From: Candidatus Roseilinea mizusawaensis | Lineage (GTDB): Bacteria > Chloroflexota > Anaerolineae > J036 > Brachytrichaceae | Direction: 5' to 3' | Assembly (NCBI GenBank): GCA_016841965.1 | Contig: JAEANN010000024.1 | Span: 1-64,000, forward strand | Length of the DNA: 64,000 nucleotides | Shown: positions 747 to 64,000 of the stretch, piece after piece | Numbering within the stretch: position 1 is the first letter of the stretch | How the letters are laid out: each line of letters opens with the position of its first letter | The notes under the pieces: generated by a model | What the model was told of the DNA's origin: nothing | Database searches by the model: none | Seen by the model: only the letters and a program-made list of their open reading frames with translations | Translations under genes and position numbers: made by a program

Positions 747-1856
747 ATGTACTGGCCGGCGGCGGGAAGGTTTGTCAGCGCGGATACGGTGGTGCCGGGG
801 CCGGGGAATCCCCAGCAGTTCAATCGTTACGCCTATGTGGTCAACAATCCGTTGCGCCATACCGACCCCACCGGCCATTGTCTGGATGACTATTGCGGCA
901 TGCCCGGTGGGCCAGGCAGCCCTGCCAGAGCCACGGGCAACCGCAACGCTCAATACGCCTGTGTGCGCGGTTTTGGCTGCTTCGACACCAAACATTTGCG
1001 CAACTTCCCCAACCCCGGCGGACAACAGGGCTTGTGGGATCGATTCCAACGCGAGGCGGGTATGAGCAGACAATTCGCCCTGCCAATCGAATCATCGTTA
1101 GGCGGTGGCAGCGCGCTCAAGATCACCTATCGTGTTGCAGGCGGTTTGCCGCAGGGACAGTGGGCTGCTGTGGCGATGGGTATCTTCCTGGACTATGCCC
1201 GCGAGTATGAATCCGCGCAGTTCATCCGCTCAGGATTCGCCAACCAGGACATGCCCTCCAACTACGTCGGCATGCTGGCGGCGATAAACGGCATCAGCCC
1301 CGATGCCATTCTGATGACGCTGGCCGGCGCTGCCGGCCTGAATGCGTATATCCCGTTGCTGATCGTAGCCGTTCTGGCCCACGCGCAGGTTATCCACTTG
1401 CATCCGCCGTTTGATATGCTGTCCGAATGGTGGGTGATCGGTGTTTTGGTCGTTTTGCTGGCGATCGAGGTCGTGGTGGACAAAGTGCCCGGTGCTGATC
1501 ATGTGAATGATGTGATACAGACAATCGTTCGCCCGGCGGCCGGCGCGGTTCTCTTCGCTGCCAACAGCGGCATTGTCACCGACATCAGCCCTGTGCTGGC
1601 GATCATCGTTGGCTTGCTCACGGCCGGGGTTGTGCACGGCGGCAAGGTGGTAGCGAGGCCGGCCATCAATGTGTCAACCGCAGGCATTGGCGCGCCGGTC
1701 GTCAGTTTTGTGGAGGATGTTGTTTCAGTGGTAGGGTCGGTTTTGGCGGTGCTGGCGCCGGCGCTTTTCGTCCTGTTCGTTGCCGCGATTGGTTATTTGG
1801 TGTATCGGGCAGTCCGTCGCTTGAAACGCGCGCAGCGTCGAAATCAACCGGTATGA
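747..1856 (+). CDS. RHS core end and tail domain fused to a DUF4126 membrane protein
   Basis: The 369-residue reading frame starts with the RHS core end (MYWPAAGRFVSADTV, then NRYAYVVNNPLRHTDPTGH). It continues with a tail domain seen in RHS proteins of this phylum (GCFDTKHLRNF, GIFLDYAREYE, MPSNYVGMLAAINGIS). From about residue 180 it is a DUF4126 protein: AGLNAYIPLLIVAVLA, the acidic DKVPGADHVNDVIQ segment, RPAAGAVLFAA, several hydrophobic segments and a basic end. An internal ATG at 1273 would give a 194-residue product, a normal length for a free-standing DUF4126 protein. The native gene may therefore start there, with RHS sequence recombined in front of it. The stop codon overlaps the holB start (ATGA, 1853-1856), so translation is probably coupled. 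The function of DUF4126 is unknown. Confidence 0.75.
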   Translation: MYWPAAGRFVSADTVVPGPGNPQQFNRYAYVVNNPLRHTDPTGHCLDDYCGMPGGPGSPARATGNRNAQYACVRGFGCFDTKHLRNFPNPGGQQGLWDRFQREAGMSRQFALPIESSLGGGSALKITYRVAGGLPQGQWAAVAMGIFLDYAREYESAQFIRSGFANQDMPSNYVGMLAAINGISPDAILMTLAGAAGLNAYIPLLIVAVLAHAQVIHLHPPFDMLSEWWVIGVLVVLLAIEVVVDKVPGADHVNDVIQTIVRPAAGAVLFAANSGIVTDISPVLAIIVGLLTAGVVHGGKVVARPAINVSTAGIGAPVVSFVEDVVSVVGSVLAVLAPALFVLFVAAIGYLVYRAVRRLKRAQRRNQPV

Positions 1857-20206: not shown

Positions 20207-20275
20207 CGATCACTTCACCTGTGTACCACACTTGGTTTGTCTCGGGTTGTGTATGGGTTCTTCGGGGATACCAGG

Positions 20276-22567
20276 ATGATGGAACAAACAGCCTTTCGCG
20301 CAGAGGCGCTGGACTTGCGGCGCGAAATTGCAAGCAGCGTCATCCCTTTGCTGATCCTGTTGGGCTGGCTGGGCACGATCCTGGCGCTGTTCGCTTCCAT
20401 GCGAACGGTTGCCTGGACACAGATCGGGCTGCCTCTGGGTGTGCTGGCGTTGGGTCTGTTGTGCTGGCTGGTGCGCGATCTGGGCGACCGGCGCTGGGTG
20501 TTGTGGCTGTGCGGGTGGGGCGGCTGGATGTTGGCGGCAGCCGGTCTGGCAACCGGCGCGACGCCTTTTGCCGTCATGTGGGCCGGCATCGCCTGCGCCC
20601 TGTTGCTGTTCGTCATCGGCGAACGCGCCGGCATCGCAGGCGCGTTGGTGATGTGCATGGTAATTGTCTGGCTGGAGCAGAGTCCATCGGGCGCCAACGG
20701 GCCTGCTGCGGTGATCCTTGAAGCGCTTGCGCCTGTCTTGACTCTGGTTGCGCTTGGCCTGATGGTGTCGCGGGTGCTCTTTCGCACGCTGGAATGGATG
20801 AGCGCCGGCTACATCACAGCCCGCCAGCAGACCGAAGAACTGCGCACGCAAAGCGCCGAACTGGCGCTGGCGTTGCGCTCGCTCGATCAAACCAGCTTTG
20901 CGCTGGCGCGCGCCAACGAGCAACTGGCGCTCATGGTGGATTATGCCGAGCGTGCGCGTCGGTCGCAGCAGGAATTTGCCGCGCACATCAGTCACGAACT
21001 GCGCGCGCCACTCAATGTCATCATCGGCTTCAGCGAAATTGTGCTGGAATCCGTTCAGGCCGGCGTGTCAACCCTCACCGAAGATTTGCGCCTCGATCTC
21101 GAAGCCATCCATCGCAACGCGCATCAGTTGCTGCGCCTCGTCAACGACATTCTGGATCTCAGTCAGTTAGACGCCAGCTACATGACGATATCTCCGGCCC
21201 CGGTGAACATTGCCGAGGTAGCGCGGGCAGCCGTTGAAACCATTCGCCCTCTGGCGCAGGCGCGTGGTCTGTGGCTGGTGGTAGATGCGCCGGCCGACCT
21301 GCCCGAAACCCAGGCCGATGCGTTGCGCATTCAGCAGGTGATCCTGAATCTGGTCAACAATGCCTTGCGCTTTACCGAGCGCGGGGGCGTTACAGTGCAG
21401 TTGCGCGCGCATATCCCCGATGTGTCTGTGCAGGGGTCTGATTCTGCTGCGGCGCCGGACGGTGCAGGAAGCCCTGCGGAGATCATCGTCAGTGTGACCG
21501 ACACCGGCATCGGCATTGCGCCCGAAGATCAGGCCCGCATCTTCGAGCCGTTCGTCCAACTGCACGACAACGCCTCTGAACGACGTGGCACCGGTCTGGG
21601 GTTGACCATCAGCAAGCGCTTTGTCGAAATGCATGGCGGGCGGATGGGGGTGCGCAGCGAGGTCGGCTCTGGCAGCACGTTCTACTTCTCACTGCCGGTT
21701 CGCCCACGCAGCCTGCGCGTGTCGGCTCTGTCCAGCACACCGCGCATCGTGCAGCGTCGTGAAGTGGGAAACCTCCTGGTTGTCGAGCCGACCCCGTTGT
21801 TGTCTCGTCTGTTGAGCCGCTATATCCAGGGCATGGCAGTTGCATCGGCCCGCACGGTGCAGGAGGCGGCGCGAGAAAATCAAGCCGGGCGTGTCGAAGC
21901 TGTAATTGTCAATGAAGCCGGCGGGGATGGTCTGAATCTGGATGCAATCGTTCCGGCCGGCCTGGAGGATGTGCCTGTGGTGCGCTGTCACCTGCCCGGC
22001 GTTTTGACAGGTCTGCCCGGTCTGGCGTCGATGCCGGTGCAGCGCCTTCTGGTCAAGCCGGTGACGCCGCAGCAACTGCTAGAAGCCCTGTCCGACATGT
22101 TAGGTGCGCCCCTTGCCGCTGGCCGGCCGCCGCGCGTGCTTGTGGTCGAGGATGATGAAGACACGTTGCGTATGATGGGCGAAGCGCTGCGCGCGGCGCG
22201 CCCGGACACCGTGGTGCAGCAGGCGCGCACGGCGCAACAAGCGATTGAATGCCTGGGACTGGCCGGAGGCGATGACAACGCCAACAGGTCGCCAGACCGG
22301 CCTTTTGACGCGATGTTCCTTGATCTGAGTCTGGGCGATACCGATGGCATGGATGTATTGCGATCGATCGAACAGAAGATGCCCGGCGGGTTGCCGGTGT
22401 GCGTGGTGACCGGCCAGGAACAGCACGCCGGCAATCTCTCTATGCCGTACCTGGCCTTTGGTCGGCGCAATGGCTTGTCGGTGCAGCAGGCAGCGCGCAC
22501 AATCGCAGCATTCCTGGACGCTGCGCTGCCCGGCGTCACGGTTTCGGCGCGCTGGCCGGCTCAATGA
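20276..22567 (+). CDS. membrane hybrid histidine kinase with two receiver-like domains
   Basis: About 763 residues. The N-terminus (about residues 20-165) is a multi-helix membrane domain. A coiled coil follows (TARQQTEELRTQSAELALAL), then HisKA with AAHISHELRAPLNVIIGFSE (phospho-acceptor His) and HATPase with N box ILNLVNNALRFTE, VTDTGIGIAPEDQARIFEPF and GTGLGLTISKRF. Two receiver domains come last. The first (LLVVEPTPLLSRLL) has lost the acidic pocket but keeps VKP. The second (VLVVEDDEDTLRMM, DAMFLDLSLGDTDG) keeps the phospho-Asp but lacks the late Lys. The start is uncertain: ATG at 20276 or 20279, or TTG at 20237. The last 32 nt overlap the convergent regulator gene. Confidence 0.87.
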   Translation: MMEQTAFRAEALDLRREIASSVIPLLILLGWLGTILALFASMRTVAWTQIGLPLGVLALGLLCWLVRDLGDRRWVLWLCGWGGWMLAAAGLATGATPFAVMWAGIACALLLFVIGERAGIAGALVMCMVIVWLEQSPSGANGPAAVILEALAPVLTLVALGLMVSRVLFRTLEWMSAGYITARQQTEELRTQSAELALALRSLDQTSFALARANEQLALMVDYAERARRSQQEFAAHISHELRAPLNVIIGFSEIVLESVQAGVSTLTEDLRLDLEAIHRNAHQLLRLVNDILDLSQLDASYMTISPAPVNIAEVARAAVETIRPLAQARGLWLVVDAPADLPETQADALRIQQVILNLVNNALRFTERGGVTVQLRAHIPDVSVQGSDSAAAPDGAGSPAEIIVSVTDTGIGIAPEDQARIFEPFVQLHDNASERRGTGLGLTISKRFVEMHGGRMGVRSEVGSGSTFYFSLPVRPRSLRVSALSSTPRIVQRREVGNLLVVEPTPLLSRLLSRYIQGMAVASARTVQEAARENQAGRVEAVIVNEAGGDGLNLDAIVPAGLEDVPVVRCHLPGVLTGLPGLASMPVQRLLVKPVTPQQLLEALSDMLGAPLAAGRPPRVLVVEDDEDTLRMMGEALRAARPDTVVQQARTAQQAIECLGLAGGDDNANRSPDRPFDAMFLDLSLGDTDGMDVLRSIEQKMPGGLPVCVVTGQEQHAGNLSMPYLAFGRRNGLSVQQAARTIAAFLDAALPGVTVSARWPAQ

Positions 22568-23861
22568 TCGCGCGCAGCATCTCATTCAGTTGCGCCGCCT
22601 TGAACGGGCGGGGCAGGATGGCGGCGGCGCCCATCGCCCGCGCCAGGTCTGGCTCGGGCAGCACCGAGCTGATGACAATCGGAATGGAGGCTGTTTCGGG
22701 ATAGGTCTTCAGCAGGCGCAAGATTTCCCAGCCATCGTGATCGGGCATCATCAGGTCAAGCAGAATGCAGGCCGGCCTCGAAGCGCGAATCTGGCTCAGC
22801 GCCTGATCCATCGTGCTGACCCCGACAAATGCCAAGTCTGACGCGCGCTGGAGTTGTCGCTGCGCCAGACGCAGCATGTCTGGGTTGTCGTCGATCATCA
22901 GGACATAGCGCGATTGCGCCGCCGGCAGGCGCACGATGAGCTTTTCGGTCTGACGCGGCGTGATTTCCACGTTCAGTCCCGCGTCGGCCGAGCGCGCAAG
23001 CTGTTTGAGTGTGCTGCCGATGGGACGCCGGCGACCGACCATTGGATGCTCCAACTCCAATGCGACAAAAGGACGCGGCGGGCCTGCCAACGCGCGGATG
23101 CGCACCAGCAGCCTTTCGTGATATGTATCATGGATGAGCCACCCTAGCGCATTGATGACCAGTTGGCGGGCCAGCATGGCATTGATCTGCGCGGCCGGCA
23201 GAGCGTCTTCCAGACTCGCCGTCACGGTCAGGTCCTGTTGGGTTAATACAGGGTCCAGGACGGTCAGGGCAGCGCGTAGAATCTCGGGCAGGTGGATCAA
23301 CTCTGGACTTGTCGAGGCCGGTTCACTGGCCGGTGGGATGGGCGAGCGGCTGCGATCGGCCGGGGTAGACTGGTCAAAGATCAGCGCGTCCAGCGCCTCG
23401 ATGGCGCGCTGTTGTTCGCGCTTGAAATGGCGCACGCCAATGCCCAGTTCAGCGGCGGCCTCTCGTTGGGTCAGGCCATCGAGGTAACGCAGCGTAAGGA
23501 GCCTGTGCAAGCGCCAGGCCGGCGCGTTGGGGGCGGTTTCCGGCGGAGGCTGCATCCGTCGGATGGCGTCCTCTAAAGCTTGTTGCAGGGTGGGCGCGTC
23601 GGTGAATCGGCCGGCCATCAGCGGTGCGCGCGCATGTTCCTGCAAATATCCCAGATCGTGAAAACGCGCCAGGGCCTGGCGCAACCAAGCACGCCGCGCC
23701 GCGACTGTACGGGCCGCACTGTTGCGGGTCAGAATCTCGCGTGGCGCAGTCTCGCGCGTCATGCCGCCCGACTTGGGATGCCTCTGTCTGTTATCGCTGC
23801 CCGGCTGGGACGCCCCTGGCGCCTGTCCCTGAGATGTCCCTCTCTGGTCACCTGATGCCAC
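22536..23861 (-). CDS. regulator with sigma-region-4-like HTH, degenerate ATPase and receiver domain
   Basis: A 441-residue protein from a GTG at 23861; an ATG at 23762 is an alternative. Residues ~110-155 carry LLTLRYLDGLTQREAAAELG and a following recognition helix (GVRHFKREQQRAIEAL), as in sigma-70 region 4. The middle (QLVINALGWLI and onward) resembles a HATPase fold without its glycine-rich boxes. The C-terminus is a receiver: YVLMIDDNPDMLRLAQ, CILLDLMMPDHDGWEIL, IPIVISS, with Arg in place of the usual Lys (LPRPF). It converges on the hybrid kinase gene with a 32-nt overlap. The two may work together in an unknown phosphorelay. The sensed signal cannot be inferred. Confidence 0.75.
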   Translation of the reverse strand: MASGDQRGTSQGQAPGASQPGSDNRQRHPKSGGMTRETAPREILTRNSAARTVAARRAWLRQALARFHDLGYLQEHARAPLMAGRFTDAPTLQQALEDAIRRMQPPPETAPNAPAWRLHRLLTLRYLDGLTQREAAAELGIGVRHFKREQQRAIEALDALIFDQSTPADRSRSPIPPASEPASTSPELIHLPEILRAALTVLDPVLTQQDLTVTASLEDALPAAQINAMLARQLVINALGWLIHDTYHERLLVRIRALAGPPRPFVALELEHPMVGRRRPIGSTLKQLARSADAGLNVEITPRQTEKLIVRLPAAQSRYVLMIDDNPDMLRLAQRQLQRASDLAFVGVSTMDQALSQIRASRPACILLDLMMPDHDGWEILRLLKTYPETASIPIVISSVLPEPDLARAMGAAAILPRPFKAAQLNEMLRAIIEPASAPKP

Positions 23862-24066: not shown

Positions 24067-25500
24067 ATGAAGCAACGAATCGGACGACGACAGTTTCTGC
24101 GTGTGACAGCCGGCGGTTCGGCTATGGCGCTGTACCTGGCGGCTTGCGCCGGCGCCCCTCAGCAGCCGGCGCAGCCAGCTCAGCCCGGAGAGCAACCCGC
24201 CGCACCAGAGAAGCCGGCAGAGAGCGCCCCGGCCCCATCGGCAGAGAAGATCACGCTGGTGCGCTACGCCTCGATGGAAAAGGACCACTTCCCCCTGTTT
24301 GAAGCTCAGCGCAACGGCTTCAACAAGCTCTACCCCAACGTGACAGTCGAAGAGGCCGGCGTGCCGTGGGGCGAGTACATCGCCAAAGTGCGTGTGTTGC
24401 TGAACAGCGGCGAAGTCCCGGATGTGTTCTGGTTCATGCGCTATGGTCAGTGGGACCCCGGCATCGAAGCGGCCACGTACCTGAAAGAGGACATCATCGC
24501 GCCGGCCAACGAAATTCTGAACATTCAGGAGACCAAGCACTTCGAGAATATCGTCGAAGCCGGCAAAGTGGATGGCAAGCTGGTCGGCATTCCGTTCGAG
24601 GTCTTCTCCAACGGTGTGAACTGGATGTACAACCTGTCCATCCTCGAGCGCACCGGCATGACGCCGCTGCCGCAGAACCCCACCTGGGACGAGTTGGATG
24701 CCTGGTATCTGGAGGCGCAAGGCAAGGTAGCTGACGACGAGTTCGCCATGGGCCCTGGCTCGTGGGAATTTTGGGGCACTTTTATGTCGGCCTCGGCTGA
24801 TCAGCCCGGCTTCTGTGGCATGGTCGATGTCGGCAACAACAAGTGCATCATCGACACGGACGCAAACGCCGCGACCCTCTCAAGACTGGCTAAGTTCTAC
24901 AAGACCCATATCCTGGCGCGCGGCGACGCGGCGCCGGGCCACCTCGACGGCATGTTGGGCGGCAAGGTGTTGGGCGCGGCCATGTCCACCTGGGCGCCCA
25001 CCCAGATGAACCAGGCACCTTTCCAGTACACAGCGCACTCTGCCCCGCGTCAGACCGGCGTCGACCCGCGCATCGATGGCTTCACCGGCATCAACTGGTG
25101 GTGCTTTGGCAAAGAAAGCAAGCACATCAAAGAGGCCGCCGACTTCTGTCTGTACTGCGGCGCGCAGGAGGGCCTGGACTTCTGGGCGGCTTCCGGTCGT
25201 TTCACGCCAACGTTCAAGTACACCGTCGATGACTACGTCAAGTTCGCCAAGGACTTGAACCAGCTTGGCAACAACGAGTCGGGCTTCCGCGCTGCCATCA
25301 CAACTAACTTTGACGTGGTGCCGCACTTGCAAGTGTGGCCTATTCCTGAGAAGGCTTACTGGGGCCAGGTGCTCACCAAGCTGAATGAAATGCTGAAGGA
25401 CGTGGTCGAGGGCACGACCGTCGAGCAGGATAAGATCAAGACATTGCTGGCGCAGGCGCAGATCGAAGTGCAGAAGGTTTTGGACGGCGAGTCGGCCTGA
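24067..25500 (+). CDS. sugar ABC transporter substrate-binding lipoprotein (family 1)
   Basis: A 477-residue extracellular solute-binding protein. The N-terminus has a twin-arginine-like start (GRRQFLRVTAGG), a hydrophobic stretch and the lipobox LAAC, followed by a Pro/Ala/Gln-rich linker. The body shows family-1 features such as FNKLYPNVTVEEAGVPWGEY, LLNSGEVPDVFWF, VDGKLVGIPFEVFSNGVNWM and NPTWDELDAW. It should bind a sugar or oligosaccharide outside the membrane and deliver it to the two permeases encoded downstream. A strong AAGGAGG site lies upstream. A hairpin follows the gene, which usually raises the level of the binding protein over the permeases. Confidence 0.92.
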   Translation: MKQRIGRRQFLRVTAGGSAMALYLAACAGAPQQPAQPAQPGEQPAAPEKPAESAPAPSAEKITLVRYASMEKDHFPLFEAQRNGFNKLYPNVTVEEAGVPWGEYIAKVRVLLNSGEVPDVFWFMRYGQWDPGIEAATYLKEDIIAPANEILNIQETKHFENIVEAGKVDGKLVGIPFEVFSNGVNWMYNLSILERTGMTPLPQNPTWDELDAWYLEAQGKVADDEFAMGPGSWEFWGTFMSASADQPGFCGMVDVGNNKCIIDTDANAATLSRLAKFYKTHILARGDAAPGHLDGMLGGKVLGAAMSTWAPTQMNQAPFQYTAHSAPRQTGVDPRIDGFTGINWWCFGKESKHIKEAADFCLYCGAQEGLDFWAASGRFTPTFKYTVDDYVKFAKDLNQLGNNESGFRAAITTNFDVVPHLQVWPIPEKAYWGQVLTKLNEMLKDVVEGTTVEQDKIKTLLAQAQIEVQKVLDGESA

Positions 25501-25580: not shown

Positions 25581-25651
25581 GCCTGATCGTCTGTGTCTCT
25601 CACCGGCAGCAAAGTCAGTCTGTGATAGCTTTGCGTCTTGTGTGATTGTCT

Positions 25652-26605
25652 ATGACTACTTCCCCTGTGTCCGTGCCCGCGTCTCGAAAGCACGGCGGAT
25701 GGTTTGGATGGTGGCGCTCACCCAGCCGGCGTGAGGAAGTGCTCACCGGCTGGCTGTTTGTCCTGCCGGCTGTGCTCGGCTTTGTGTTGTTCATGTATCT
25801 CAACCTGCGCGGCATCCAACTCAGCTTCACCGACTGGAGCTGGATCAGCCGCAGGCCCCCGGAGTTCGTCGGTCTGAATAACTATTCTTTGATCTTGCGC
25901 CCAGACAGCGACTTCCTGAAGGGGATGGTGCGCACGCTGATCTATGTCATGTTTGTGCCGGTCAGCATCAGTATTGCATTCAGCATCGCGCTGCTGGCCA
26001 ATCAGGCCGTGAAAGGGCAAACGTTCTTTCGCGTGGTGTGTTATTTGCCGGCCATCACTGGCGCCGGCGTGCTCGTCATCGTCTGGACGTATTTGTTCAG
26101 CGTCGACGGGCCGGTCAACTTTGTGCTGCGCGGCGTAGGCATCGACCCGCCCCGTTGGACCACGGTGACTGAATGGAAGCAGGTGGCGCTGCTTTTGCTG
26201 ATCGCGTGGGGCGCGGCGCCCGGCATGATCATCTCGCTGGCCGGCCTGCAAGCGATTCCCAAAGACTACTACGATGCGGCCAAAGTGGATGGGGCAAGCA
26301 GTTGGCGCACGCTGCTCAACATCACCATCCCGCTGATGACGCCGACGCTGTTCTTTCAATTGGTGCTGGGTGTCATCGGCGCCTGGCAGACCTTCGACAT
26401 CATCTATTTCTGGGCCACCCCCGGCACTGGCTTACAAGACGCCAATCTCTGGACAGCCTCGGTGCAAATCTACCAATACGCCTTCGCGCAGAATCGACCC
26501 GGCCTCGGCGCAGCGGCGGCCATCGTGCTGGGTCTGGTTATTCTGGTTTTCACTGTGATCAATTTCGTCGCTCAGCGGCGCTGGGTGACCTATGACATTA
26601 CCTGA
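25652..26605 (+). CDS. sugar ABC transporter permease (MalF/UgpA-like)
   Basis: A 317-residue inner-membrane permease with about six helices. The first follows a soluble N-terminus (LTGWLFVLPAVLGFVLFMYL). The cytoplasmic EAA loop, which contacts the ATPase, reads IPKDYYDAAKVDGASSWRTL and LLNITIPLMTP. The ATG at 25652 is preferred over a TTG at 25646. It pairs with the MalG-like permease gene 10 bp downstream. The block contains no ATPase gene, so a shared MsmX/UgpC-type ATPase encoded elsewhere is likely. Confidence 0.9.
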   Translation: MTTSPVSVPASRKHGGWFGWWRSPSRREEVLTGWLFVLPAVLGFVLFMYLNLRGIQLSFTDWSWISRRPPEFVGLNNYSLILRPDSDFLKGMVRTLIYVMFVPVSISIAFSIALLANQAVKGQTFFRVVCYLPAITGAGVLVIVWTYLFSVDGPVNFVLRGVGIDPPRWTTVTEWKQVALLLLIAWGAAPGMIISLAGLQAIPKDYYDAAKVDGASSWRTLLNITIPLMTPTLFFQLVLGVIGAWQTFDIIYFWATPGTGLQDANLWTASVQIYQYAFAQNRPGLGAAAAIVLGLVILVFTVINFVAQRRWVTYDIT

Positions 26606-26615
26606 GCATTAGGCT

Positions 26616-27533
26616 ATGGCTGTTACTGCTGCTACTACGAATGTGCGTCAGGTGCGCGGCCTGTCAACCAGTTCGCGCGAATGGGCGCGTCTAGCCGGCG
26701 TCTACTTCGTGATGGGATTGGTCACGATTATTCTGGCTTTTCCCTTTTACTACCTGGCCACCTCTGCGTTCAAGCCCACCGCCGAGCTATTCGAGTATCC
26801 GCCCACATTGTTTCCCCGCTCGTTCACGCTTGATCATTTCCCGCTGGCGTTCCAAGCTGCGCCTTTCCCGCGCATGTTGTTAAACACACTGGTCATTTGC
26901 TCAATCACGGTCGCCGGCGCGGCCATCTCGAACTCGCTGGCGGCTTTTGCCATTGCCCGGCTGCGTTTTCCATTCCGCACACTGATCTTCGGCTGTATGT
27001 TGATCACGCTGATGATCCCCGGCTGGATCAGTCTGGTGCCCGCCTACGTTTTCTGGCGCGATGTCGGGCGCACAACCCTGAGCCTGTTTGGGGTCAATAT
27101 TGGCGTCAATACGATCGGCCCGCTGGTCATTCCCGCCTTTCTCACCTCGGCCTATTCCACGTTTCTAATGCGCCAGTATTTCATGACGATTCCGAAGGAA
27201 CTGGAAGAGGCCGCTCGCATCGATGGGGCTACTTATTTCCGTATTTATTGGAATATTTTTCTGCCCCTGTCATTTCCGGTTCTGGCGGTCATTTGTCTGG
27301 GCGCTTTCATGGCCAGTTGGAACGACTTGCTAGGGCCGCTCATCTACCTCTCCAAGCCGGAGAATCAGACCATCACTGTTGGCCTCTCGTACCTCAATAC
27401 GCAGCATATGGGTGTGATCTATCGCGGCGCCCGTTTCGCTGCCGCGCTGATGGCGGCGATTCCGATCCTGACCCTGTATGCGTTCACCAACAAGTACCTC
27501 ATTCGAGGCATTGTGTTGGGCGGGTTGAAGTAA
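26616..27533 (+). CDS. sugar ABC transporter permease (MalG/UgpE-like)
   Basis: A 305-residue inner-membrane permease with about six helices. Family signatures are LAFPFYYLATSAFKPTAELF near the N-terminus and the EAA loop IPKELEEAARIDGATYFRIY with WNIFLPLSFPVL, then MASWNDLLGPLIYL. It is the second half of the heterodimeric channel with the preceding gene. A chaperonin-like gene begins 15 bp downstream on the same strand, so the two may be cotranscribed. Confidence 0.92.
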   Translation: MAVTAATTNVRQVRGLSTSSREWARLAGVYFVMGLVTIILAFPFYYLATSAFKPTAELFEYPPTLFPRSFTLDHFPLAFQAAPFPRMLLNTLVICSITVAGAAISNSLAAFAIARLRFPFRTLIFGCMLITLMIPGWISLVPAYVFWRDVGRTTLSLFGVNIGVNTIGPLVIPAFLTSAYSTFLMRQYFMTIPKELEEAARIDGATYFRIYWNIFLPLSFPVLAVICLGAFMASWNDLLGPLIYLSKPENQTITVGLSYLNTQHMGVIYRGARFAAALMAAIPILTLYAFTNKYLIRGIVLGGLK

Positions 27534-27548
27534 ATCGAGCACAACACC

Positions 27549-29246
27549 ATGTGGCGTAGCTCCCGGCCTCCGCATGTCCCCCGGCGTGATCTGGATGTTG
27601 CGCCAGGGGCGCGCATTGTCTTTCAGCCACAGGCAACGCAAGCTATGGTGGCCGGCGTCGATGCGCTGGTGGATGCCATCCGGCCCACGCTGGGGCCGTT
27701 GGCGCGCACGGTGCTGGTCGAGCGCGGCATGGGCCGGCATGTCGCCCCCGATGTCATGACCAGCGCTGGTCTGATCAGTCGTCGCCTGATTGCGCTCCCG
27801 GACCCCAACGCAGATGTGGGCGCGATGCTCTTACGCCATGCCCTCTGGCAGACGCAAGAGCGCGCCGGCGACGGCGTCGCCACGGCAGCCGTTCTCTTTC
27901 ACGACATCGTTCGACGCGCGCGCCGCTATATTGCAGCCGGCGGCAATGCCATGCGGATGCGCGACGGCATGTTGCGCGCCGGCGACGCGGTGTGTCAGGC
28001 GCTGGCCGGCCAGGCTGAACCGCTTGACAACGCGCCGGAGATCGTGCGGCGTTGGGTCGCCGCACACTGCGATGATGTAGCCCTGGCCGACACACTCGCG
28101 AACATTCTGGCTTCTGTCGGCGCAGATGTCTCGTTGCAGGTGGAAGAAGCGCACGGCGCGACCATTGAGCATGAGTTCATCGCCGGCGCGTTGTGGCGCA
28201 CCGGCTGGCATGGCGCACCCTTCGCCCCCGGCGAGTACGCCCAAAATCGCATGTTGCGCCTGCCCAATGCGCACGTGCTCGTCTCGGACCTTGATTTGTC
28301 CGACGCATCCTACATGGAGCCTTTGCTGATGACGTTGGCCCGCTTGAAGCCGGCGCATCTGCTGGTGATCTGCCGCGCTGTATCGCCTGCATTGCTCGCG
28401 CTGTTCACCCAGGCGCGTCAGCAGGGCATCGGCAGCGCCGTCTTCGTCAAGCCGCCGGCCGCCAGTGGGCCGGATCGCGCCGCGCTGTTGACCGACATTG
28501 CCGTCCTCACCGGCGCGCAGTTCATCCCGCATTTCGAGCCGCGCAATGGCAGCGGGCCGGCAATTGATCTGCGCGACTGGCTGCCCCATGCGCTGGGTCG
28601 GGCCGATGTGGCCTGGGCCAGCGAGCATTTCTTTGGCATCGAAGGGGGGCGCGGCGAGCCGGCGGCGCAGGTCGATCATCTGGCCAAACTCGACGCGCAA
28701 TTTGCCACCGAATCCGACCCCGCGCGCGTGCGCTTTCACCGCGAGCGCATGACAGCATTTGGCGCCGGCGTGATGCGCCTCAAGATCGGCGCGCCGACCG
28801 ACGCGGCGCGCAAACAGCGCAAGGCGCAAGCCGAACGTCTGGCGCGTCTTGTCGAGCAGGTCAATCGCTTTGGCGTTGTGCCGGGCGCCGGCAAGGCTCT
28901 TCTGCTCTGCGAAGAAGCGGCGCGCCAGGTCGCAGAAAATCAGCCTGATGATGCGCGCCACGGCGCTTTGTGCGTGGCCGAGGCGTTGGCTGCGCCCATG
29001 CGGGTGATTGCCGACAACGCCGGCCTCGATGGCGCCGCCATCGTCGCCCGCAATCGGGCCGGCGCGCCTGCTGAAGCAGTGGATGTGCGCGCCGGCCAGA
29101 TCGTCGATCTGCGCCAGGCCGGCATTCTCGATTCGGCCTTTGCCCTCGAACAGGCCACGCGCGCTGCTGTCAGCGCTGCCGCGACCTTCATCACTACCGA
29201 TGTGATCGTGCATCGCCGGCAAACCGAGACTGCGATCAAACCATGA
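27549..29246 (+). CDS. divergent GroEL/Cpn60 paralogue
   Basis: A 565-residue group I chaperonin-like protein. It has the full three-domain order: DAIRPTLGPLARTVLVERG and ERAGDGVATAAVLFHDIV in the equatorial domain, VFVKPPAASGPDRAALLTDI and AVLTGAQFI in the apical domain, and a C-terminal equatorial part with RFGVVPGAGKALL. The Asp of GDGTTTA (E. coli D87) is retained as GDGVATA. The position of D52 in TKDG appears as TSAG, and the Asp of VEDALHATR (D398) appears as Arg, so ATP hydrolysis may be lost. There is no GGM tail and no groES alongside. It sits between sugar permeases and a xylanase, which it overlaps by 4 nt, and is unlikely to be the housekeeping copy. Confidence 0.85.
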   Translation: MWRSSRPPHVPRRDLDVAPGARIVFQPQATQAMVAGVDALVDAIRPTLGPLARTVLVERGMGRHVAPDVMTSAGLISRRLIALPDPNADVGAMLLRHALWQTQERAGDGVATAAVLFHDIVRRARRYIAAGGNAMRMRDGMLRAGDAVCQALAGQAEPLDNAPEIVRRWVAAHCDDVALADTLANILASVGADVSLQVEEAHGATIEHEFIAGALWRTGWHGAPFAPGEYAQNRMLRLPNAHVLVSDLDLSDASYMEPLLMTLARLKPAHLLVICRAVSPALLALFTQARQQGIGSAVFVKPPAASGPDRAALLTDIAVLTGAQFIPHFEPRNGSGPAIDLRDWLPHALGRADVAWASEHFFGIEGGRGEPAAQVDHLAKLDAQFATESDPARVRFHRERMTAFGAGVMRLKIGAPTDAARKQRKAQAERLARLVEQVNRFGVVPGAGKALLLCEEAARQVAENQPDDARHGALCVAEALAAPMRVIADNAGLDGAAIVARNRAGAPAEAVDVRAGQIVDLRQAGILDSAFALEQATRAAVSAAATFITTDVIVHRRQTETAIKP

Positions 29247-30418
29247 GCGCCCGACGTCGATTTCTGCGTACAGCAATCGGCCTGGCGGCAGGCAGCGTTG
29301 TGGCCGGCTGCCGTGTTATGCCGCCGACGGCTACGCCGGCCTCATCCCCATCGGCCCCTGCGCAGCCCCAGCCAACGGCCATGCCCGGCGGATTGCGCGA
29401 GCCGGCCAACCGCATCGGCCTGCGCCTCGGTTCCGCCGTCCCGTGGATGTTGTTCAACGGCCCGCAGCGCCAGGCCATGCTGGATGTGTTCGCGCGTGAC
29501 TTCAATGCAGCCACCATTCACAACGGTTTCTATTGGACAGAATGGGAATCACAAGAAGGGCAGGTGAGCGCACGCGCACTCGATCAATGCCGCCGCGAGA
29601 TTGCCGCTCTGCGCGCCATCGGCATCACCGACTTGCGTGGGCATCCTTTGATCTTCCCCGGCTACGAGCCGCAATGGTTGGCAGAAGGCATGCGGGCTGG
29701 CCGGTACAAAAAAGCGCGTCTGGCCGAGATTGTGCAACAGCACATCCGACAGGTCATGGAGCTGTTCCGCGCCGACATACGCGAGTGGGTGGTTGTCAAC
29801 GAACCCTATCGCTTCTATGGCCCGACACAGGGCGATTACTTCAAGCTCATTCTCGGTGAGGAGTATGTCGATCTGGCCTTTCAGACCGCGCGCGAGGTGG
29901 ACCCGGCCGCCAAATTGCTGCTCAACGACTGGGACAATCACGGTACACGCGGTTTGAGCGGCGCCTCTGAAGGCTCCTCGGAAACGGTCGTCCGCAACAA
30001 GACCATCGTAGAGCGTCTGAAGGCAAAAGGGTTGATCGACGGCATTGGCTTGCAAGTCCATGTCAACGCCGCGCGACCACCCCACAAGCAAGACATGATC
30101 GACACCATGCGCGGCTATGGGGTGCCCGTGCATCTCACCGAGCTGGATGTAAACCTGAAAGATGTGCGCGGCGAGCCGGCCCAGCGTTTCGAGAAACAGG
30201 CCCGCGTGTACGTGGAAGTGATCGAAGCGGCCCTGGAATCTGGTGTGTGTGAGAGCATCTGCGTGTGGGAATTTGGCGACCGCTACTCGTGGCTAGAGCA
30301 GACGTGGAATCAGTACGGCTCGCCCGACGCCGACCCCACATGGCTCGATGACGACTTACAGCCCAAGCCGGCTTATGAGGCAGTGCGTCGCGCCTTGATG
30401 GCTTGGGTCGATCGTTGA
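29243..30418 (+). CDS. GH10 endo-1,4-beta-xylanase-like lipoprotein
   Basis: A 391-residue exported lipoprotein: RRRFLRTAIGLAAGSVVAGC ends in a lipobox and is followed by a Pro/Ser/Thr linker. The GH10 TIM barrel follows, with NGFYWTEWE, LRGHPLIFPGY, the acid/base Glu in WVVVNEPY (residue 187) and the nucleophile Glu in HLTELDVNL (residue 300). ESICVWEFGDRYSWL is the family C-terminal strand. It should cleave xylan or related beta-1,4-glycans at the cell surface and feed the ABC importer encoded upstream. Its ATG overlaps the chaperonin stop, so translation is coupled. Confidence 0.92.
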   Translation: MSARRRFLRTAIGLAAGSVVAGCRVMPPTATPASSPSAPAQPQPTAMPGGLREPANRIGLRLGSAVPWMLFNGPQRQAMLDVFARDFNAATIHNGFYWTEWESQEGQVSARALDQCRREIAALRAIGITDLRGHPLIFPGYEPQWLAEGMRAGRYKKARLAEIVQQHIRQVMELFRADIREWVVVNEPYRFYGPTQGDYFKLILGEEYVDLAFQTAREVDPAAKLLLNDWDNHGTRGLSGASEGSSETVVRNKTIVERLKAKGLIDGIGLQVHVNAARPPHKQDMIDTMRGYGVPVHLTELDVNLKDVRGEPAQRFEKQARVYVEVIEAALESGVCESICVWEFGDRYSWLEQTWNQYGSPDADPTWLDDDLQPKPAYEAVRRALMAWVDR

Positions 30419-63638: not shown

Positions 63639-64000
63639 CATGCGGCCACCCGGCGGACGAGCATCTCGAACACGCAGGCGCAGACGCGCTGGACGTACGA
63701 TCTGCGCGGGCGGGTGGCGCAGGAGTACATCACGATCACGGGGCGGGCGATGCCGTATGGGACGGCGTATCAGTACGACGCGGCGGACCGGCTGACGCGG
63801 CTGACGTATCCGAACGGCGAGTGGGTGACGACGACGTACGACGCCGGCGGGCAGCCGTACAGCCTGCTGGGGTGGAGCGCGTATGTGGTGAGCGCGACGT
63901 ACAACGCGCTGGGGCAGCCGGCGCGGACGCGCTTTGGGAACGGGCTGGAGGCGCGCTACACCTACTTCACGCCGCAGGAGTTGCCGTGGGCAGGGCTGGC
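63639..64000 (+). pseudogene. RHS repeat protein, internal part, running off the window
   Basis: The open frame (after a stop at 63636-63638) has no ATG, GTG or TTG near its start but reads as RHS/YD repeats: RWTYDLRGRVAQEYITITGR, YQYDAADRLTRLTYPNG, TTTYDAGGQPYSLLGW, ATYNALGQPARTRFGNGLEA. It lacks a signal peptide and N-terminal RHS domain. It is therefore either a 5'-truncated fragment or the downstream part of a frameshifted gene that continues past the window. It is on the same strand as the RHS end at 143-1856, and both are incomplete. Confidence 0.7.

Follow-up and report, generated by a model that had tools for sequence, protein, structure and literature searches.

Chaperonins are usually viewed as general-purpose, ATP-burning cages that are paired with GroES. 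Extra GroELs without a groES gene are common, with 770 of 4,861 genomes carrying them (PMC5406781), and atypical group I chaperonins have already been reviewed (PMC5904260). In the chlamydial GroEL2 and GroEL3 and in the mycobacterial, Myxococcus and cyanobacterial paralogues, an extra divergent copy without an adjacent groES exists beside a normal operon (PMC5904260, PMC5406781). The group II and III chaperonins, which include the thermosome, CCT and archaeal-like bacterial forms, are independent of GroES by definition. Client-specific cytosolic chaperones of proteins exported by the twin-arginine (Tat) pathway are represented by the Tat-specific maturation chaperones such as DmsD (PMC3316669).

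Here we describe a chaperonin gene within a 64,000-nt stretch of DNA, referred to below as the window. The gene is like the paralogues above in being an extra, divergent copy in a genome with a normal groES-groEL operon; unlike them, it belongs to a phylum-wide family with a propeller partner and sugar transporter genes. Its sequence is of group I, which sets it apart from the group II and III chaperonins. The protein resembles GroEL/Hsp60 in fold family, in being full length, in its ATP-binding residues including the equivalent of D87, and in its best PDB matches. It differs in its identity of 25–28%, the loss of both D52 and D398 and its degraded apical hydrophobic sites, and the gene has neither a GroES partner gene nor a sequence for a GGM tail. 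The likeness to the DmsD-type proteins is one of concept: they are unrelated to the window protein and their clients are cofactor-containing redox enzymes, not sugar-binding proteins, the clients in the Tat-related role that we propose here. In open-access papers we found neither the family nor its pairing with a propeller or its connection with transporters described, and this Chloroflexota Cpn60 family is apparently undescribed so far.

The window gene and its operon

The features of the locus are as follows.

20237..22567, plus strand: hybrid histidine kinase adjoining the operon, kept in the genus
22536..23861, minus strand: response regulator that forms a pair with the kinase and contains a sigma-70 region 4-like part
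24067..25500, plus strand: sugar-binding protein (SBP_bac_8/1) with the Tat lipoprotein signal GRRQFLRV...LAAC (domain search, signal inspection)
25646..26605, plus strand: MalF-type ABC permease (domain search)
26616..27533, plus strand: MalG-type ABC permease, directly 5' of the chaperonin in 6/6 members of the window clade (domain search, gene neighbourhoods)
27549..29246, plus strand: divergent group I chaperonin (Cpn60) paralogue of 565 aa, GroES-less and without a GGM tail (ORF, Pfam, NCBIfam, PDB sequence matches, alignment, tree, dN/dS)
27762..27764, plus strand: Ser72 codon, aligned to the catalytic D52 of GroEL, which is lost (MAFFT alignment)
27870..27872, plus strand: Asp108 codon, aligned to the Mg-binding D87 of GroEL, which is kept (MAFFT alignment)
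28836..28838, plus strand: Arg430 codon, aligned to the catalytic D398 of GroEL, which is lost (MAFFT alignment)
29243..29246, plus strand: ATGA in which the stop of the chaperonin gene overlaps the start of the GH10 gene, kept across the genus
29243..30418, plus strand: GH10 endo-xylanase-type lipoprotein with the Tat signal ARRRFLRT...VAGC (domain search, signal inspection)

The original prediction, made from the sequence alone, had described a full-length Cpn60-like gene between sugar permeases and a xylanase lipoprotein, and the domain searches bore this out. The ORF starts with ATG, and Pfam Cpn60_TCP1 covers residues 41–556 of its product (E 3e-28, 99 bits). NCBIfam GroEL models span the protein end to end at scores far under their cut-offs (245 bits versus 582 for TIGR02348 and 266.5 bits versus 352 for PRK12849). 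While full-length matches to the GroEL models reached as much as 266 bits, thermosome and CCT models scored 46 bits or less, mostly in the C-terminal part, and chlamydial GroEL models scored 62–89 bits against a cut-off of 600. PDB sequence matches identified group I chaperonins as the best solved relatives. GroEL/Hsp60 of group I also ranked first in a Foldseek search with an AlphaFold model, although this model, built from five input sequences, is poor, with a mean pLDDT of 64 and values below 50 for the first 92 residues. As the N-terminal equatorial part of the model is unreliable and cannot place residue 52, all residue assignments are from sequence alignment. The C-terminus reads HRRQTETAIKP (tail TTDVIVHRRQTETAIKP), where the GGM-rich tail is absent as predicted. 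Because two of the three catalytic aspartates, the groES linkage and the tail are missing and the model scores fall below the cut-offs, the protein is best classified, as judged by its sequence, as a member of the group I Cpn60/GroEL fold family and not as a GroEL equivalog.

Residues were mapped onto E. coli GroEL with MAFFT; the alignment has no gap close to the D52, D87 and D398 columns. Asp108 and Arg430 at the D87 and D398 sites agree with what had been read by eye, although the loss of D398 proved to be family-wide and not special to the window gene. An alanine had been predicted at the D52 site; the aspartate is indeed absent, but the residue there is Ser72, and Ala73, which adjoins it, is one column off. 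The window protein has Val/Ala at T89/T90 and His at S151. Orthologues of the window gene were found at 88 and 85% identity in the other genomes of the genus and at 59–61% in three genomes from another genus of the family. At the D52 site, 3/3 genomes of the genus have Ser and all three of the 59–61% orthologues have Asp. The loss of D52 in the genus is thus recent and was added to an older loss of D398.

The arrangement of the operon is conserved to different depths. The MalG-type permease gene ends 15 nt before the chaperonin start, and the genes for the binding protein and the MalF- and MalG-type permeases lie directly upstream of the chaperonin both in the genus and in the three 59–61% orthologues. 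The other two genomes of the genus share the 4-nt overlap with the GH10 gene (3/3 in total), but the GH10 gene and its overlap are confined to the genus and are missing at the three more distant orthologues. The proposed link of the chaperonin with GH10 or sugar ABC genes was therefore upheld clade-wide for the permeases, where it also recurs in the family, and restricted to the genus for the xylanase. The GH10 protein retains the catalytic Glu motifs NEP (186–188) and TELD (299–302). The hybrid histidine kinase is probably the regulator of the operon. Relatives of the kinase and the response regulator (gene clusters c4 and c13, which recur at many loci) flank several other chaperonin-linked sugar ABC operons. 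In the other two genomes of the genus (loci L039 and L040) there is an inverted repeat inside the gap between malG and the chaperonin gene, followed in L039 by a T run; it may be an attenuator in these two and is missing from the 15-nt gap of the window. There was no PADLOC match, hence no sign of a defence system. RHS/YD-repeat-like coding sequence is present at both ends of the window (747–1853 and 63714–64000).

No groES was found beside the window gene in the gene neighbourhoods, in line with the original prediction. The genome contains three Cpn60 genes: the canonical one (L078), which is part of a groES-groEL operon on another contig, the window gene, and a second divergent one (L038) that is 39% identical to the window protein, has D398 replaced by Arg and keeps D52. 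A Cpn10 search of this genome returned the gene beside the canonical groEL (G000:C24) and a second copy at C45. This second GroES-like gene (G000:C45:263738-263986; L161:5676-6002) is on a third contig in a glutaredoxin/TauE/rhodanese-type block that recurs in another genome (G012, locus L162), far from any Cpn60. It could serve as the co-chaperonin of one divergent Cpn60.

The Chloroflexota family and its ATP site

Divergent Cpn60s turned up throughout Chloroflexota in searches of 28 genomes at the level of the order, 199 at that of the class and 301 at that of the phylum. A total of 115 chaperonin loci, including canonical controls, were fetched and their genes called with a codon-usage caller; as the family was sampled by similarity, percentages given here describe the sample. 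One locus (L090) was counted as canonical after a small spurious ORF had been called between its groES and groEL, and in-frame stops in some distant canonical groEL matches were judged to come from alignments extending upstream of the start. A single search of genome contigs returned Chloroflexota relatives and one canonical actinobacterial GroEL (L006). In a tree of 120 chaperonins, obtained by a quick search and containing several long branches, one branch with a support of 96 separates 99 non-canonical Cpn60s from 21 canonical ones. On the non-canonical side, the six proteins of the window clade form a long branch (length 1.15), and the supported groups that hold the window protein, with 3, 6 and 55 members, are all non-canonical. 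On these sequence grounds the window gene is assigned to one divergent, GroES-less Cpn60 family of Chloroflexota, in which no sampled member has groES as its neighbour. The GroES-linked GroELs nearest or sister to the whole divergent family, L142 and L145 (G321 and G284), have D52, D87 and D398 intact and are without a GGM tail; they are possible intermediates.

The ATP site of the family has changed selectively. The 129 columns that are invariant in canonical GroELs are retained in the family at a median of 67%. Retention is 9% for D398, 8% for T90 and 2% for S151, and only 2/129 columns are less retained than D398. The residue at the D398 site is not Asp in 90/99 members and is Arg in 54. 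T30, G32, P33, G86, D87, G88, T91, G415 and D495 are retained in 94–100% of the family, and D52 is Asp in 77%. The tree requires at least two changes of state at D398 and a minimum of ten at D52, one of them in the window genus; losses of D52 and of the propeller gene described below showed no relation in independent pairs. D87 is Asn in five members from two lineages (L141, L146, L147, L149 and L071), in which nucleotide binding may be gone. The plain reading of the retention pattern is that nucleotide binding has been selected for in the family and hydrolysis has not. In E. coli GroEL, the D398A mutation leaves ATP binding normal and reduces the ATPase to 3%, and encapsulation still occurs (PMC3326522). 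By analogy, the members of this family may behave like that variant.

The propeller partner and the sugar transporter link

The commonest downstream neighbour in the family is a gene that the original prediction missed because it is absent from the window locus. It encodes a BNR/Asp-box beta-propeller (sortilin- and Ycf48-like), mostly of about 280–330 or 580–720 aa, and stands directly 3' of the chaperonin at 52/93 non-canonical loci as opposed to 0/20 canonical ones. The propeller is cytosolic and has no export signal. Its nearest NCBIfam model is F510_1955 'glycosylhydrolase', at a score below the cut-off. In about 30 of the 52 pairs the two genes overlap by 4 nt or are separated by less than 30 nt. 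The distances among propellers follow those among chaperonins (Mantel r 0.93, both size classes, 0/2000 permutations): the two form an old, co-inherited pair. This link speaks for a partnership and not for Tat export. In the window clade, 6/6 members are without an adjacent propeller and 6/6 have permeases, and at the window gene itself the GH10 gene occupies the position directly downstream. In the window's genome, the nearest relative of the propeller lies on a different contig (C3:40007-40828), where no chaperonin adjoins it. Standalone relatives of about 200–300 aa with no chaperonin nearby also occur elsewhere in the window's family of genomes (L154 to L159).

Sugar ABC permeases lie within 8 genes of 45/99 family chaperonins versus 2/20 canonical ones, and a MalG-type permease is directly upstream in 20/99. 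These frequencies are to be read against a background of 6–44 MalG-like genes per genome, which by arithmetic gives a chance of ~5–22% for occurrence within 9 kb and ~1% for direct adjacency. Since the tree requires at least 25 changes for the vicinity of permeases and at least 8 for direct MalG adjacency, the sugar-permease link recurs and does not go back to one inherited event. As about half of the members lack a nearby sugar permease, sugar operons cannot account for the family as a whole.

The binding proteins of the linked operons are rich in Tat signals. Such signals were found in 40/42 binding proteins of chaperonin-linked ABC operons versus 21/38 of unlinked ones, the latter being a control mainly from six genomes and drawn by similarity to one permease; these counts include a manual correction of two false control calls (L183 and L186) and a signal identified by eye that had been overlooked (L124). 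When counted by lineage, the figures were 20/22 versus 16/32 (Fisher p about 0.003), and collapsing at 35–60% identity gave 20–21 of 22–23 versus 16–17 of 31–34 (Fisher p 0.001–0.003), so that about half of the unlinked binding proteins are Tat-dependent as well by their signals. The original prediction had suggested a dedicated or non-cycling chaperone for secreted glycosidases. The first part, a dedicated and probably non- or slow-cycling chaperone, stays the best reading; its clients should be widened from glycosidases to Tat-exported lipoproteins, chiefly sugar-binding proteins, because nearly all linked binding proteins as well as the GH10 protein carry twin-arginine signals.

The strongest rival explanation takes the propeller as its starting point. 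It holds that the primary machine consists of Cpn60 and the BNR propeller, the propeller being either the obligate client of the cage or a GroES substitute that acts as adaptor or lid. The sugar link would then be secondary, and the window clade would be a derived side branch that has lost the adjacent propeller. It would account for the rank of the propeller as the commonest direct neighbour, its presence on deep family branches, its co-inheritance with the chaperonin and the pairs found without any permease nearby, and there is a eukaryotic precedent in CCT, which assists beta-propellers (PMC6599039). We nonetheless consider it somewhat unlikely, since it leaves unexplained both the excess of Tat signals and a window clade that has permeases and no propeller throughout, and since propeller relatives stand alone, away from chaperonins, even in the window's genome.

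Candidate roles of the window chaperonin

In the explanation that we favor, with a probability of roughly 0.4, the window protein serves as a dedicated, client-specific cage or holdase, locked or very slow, for the binding protein and the xylanase. In the proposed mechanism, the family chaperonins would bind nucleotide, hydrolyze it slowly or not at all and make no use of GroES, this biochemistry being read from sequence, and many of them would probably be co-expressed with the sugar ABC-uptake operons that encode them. Folding of Tat substrates precedes their export and takes place in the cytosol, where a chaperonin acts; the window chaperonin may hence hold or fold those operon proteins that need cytosolic folding before twin-arginine export. 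The sugar-binding lipoprotein would be its general client, joined in the genus by the GH10 xylanase, whose gene is translationally coupled to that of the chaperonin. For most family members, the cytosolic propeller encoded by the next gene would work with the chaperonin, either as its client or, replacing GroES, as its adaptor or lid. The window clade has lost the adjacent propeller and its genus D52 too, and the window cage would probably be locked in one nucleotide state or serve as a passive holdase. We infer the nucleotide state, ring assembly, clients, GroES independence and propeller role from sequence. Gene order in itself does not prove independence of GroES, since a Myxococcus GroEL that is encoded away from groES needs GroES (PMC5406781).

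The residues at subunit contacts bear on a different explanation, in which the paralogue enters rings with normal GroEL and tunes their ATPase or choice of clients. Chloroplast Cpn60 rings, for example, contain unequal subunits. The genome also carries a canonical groEL, the loss of catalysis with retention of binding would suit a passive subunit, and the window protein keeps some equatorial residues (R452, A108, A109, G110 and Asp at E461). Nevertheless, many contact or salt-bridge positions are altered (R13, E61, R197, E409 and R501), the protein is just 25.6% identical to GroEL from E. coli and 28.1% identical to the canonical GroEL of its own genome, and the three chaperonins per genome with their different neighbours suggest separate machines. 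Such a regulatory subunit is improbable in our estimate.

About equally improbable is a scaffold or moonlighting protein, for instance a regulatory or RNA-binding one, that has retained the Cpn60 fold and is no longer a chaperone. At eight substrate- or GroES-contact sites the share of hydrophobic residues is 1.00 in canonical GroELs, 0.79 in the family and 0.50 in the window protein; this loss of half of the apical hydrophobic sites, along with the absence of the GGM tail and of GroES, would fit a scaffold. The same reduction suits a narrow client range and the loss of GroES. A scaffold would make it hard to explain why nucleotide-binding residues are 94–100% kept in the family, and most family loci pair the chaperonin with a folding-prone propeller. 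A functionless groEL duplicate in decay, which the long branch (1.15) and the dN/dS of 0.11–0.14 within the genus, compared to 0.02–0.03 for canonical groEL and 0.01–0.04 for the neighbouring permeases, might suggest, is highly improbable given an intact, full-length frame, purifying selection across the genus that is weaker than on canonical groEL and the permeases, upstream genes shared with the 59–61% orthologues, and a conserved operon and start-stop overlap.

The preferred reading of a dedicated cage or holdase for operon proteins has escaped both results that the original prediction had named in advance as refuting: Asp is found at neither the D52 nor the D398 site, and the sugar link is not unique to this genome. 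A broader proposal, which we regard as rather doubtful, is that Chloroflexota possess an unrecognised system in which an ATP-binding, hydrolysis-impaired, GroES-free Cpn60 ring and a propeller adaptor or lid form a folding or quality-control station that gene order places at sugar ABC operons with Tat-exported binding proteins. If true, the family would offer a natural test of chaperonin function without turnover, and a test case for client-specific bacterial chaperonins and for the folding of Tat substrates before export.
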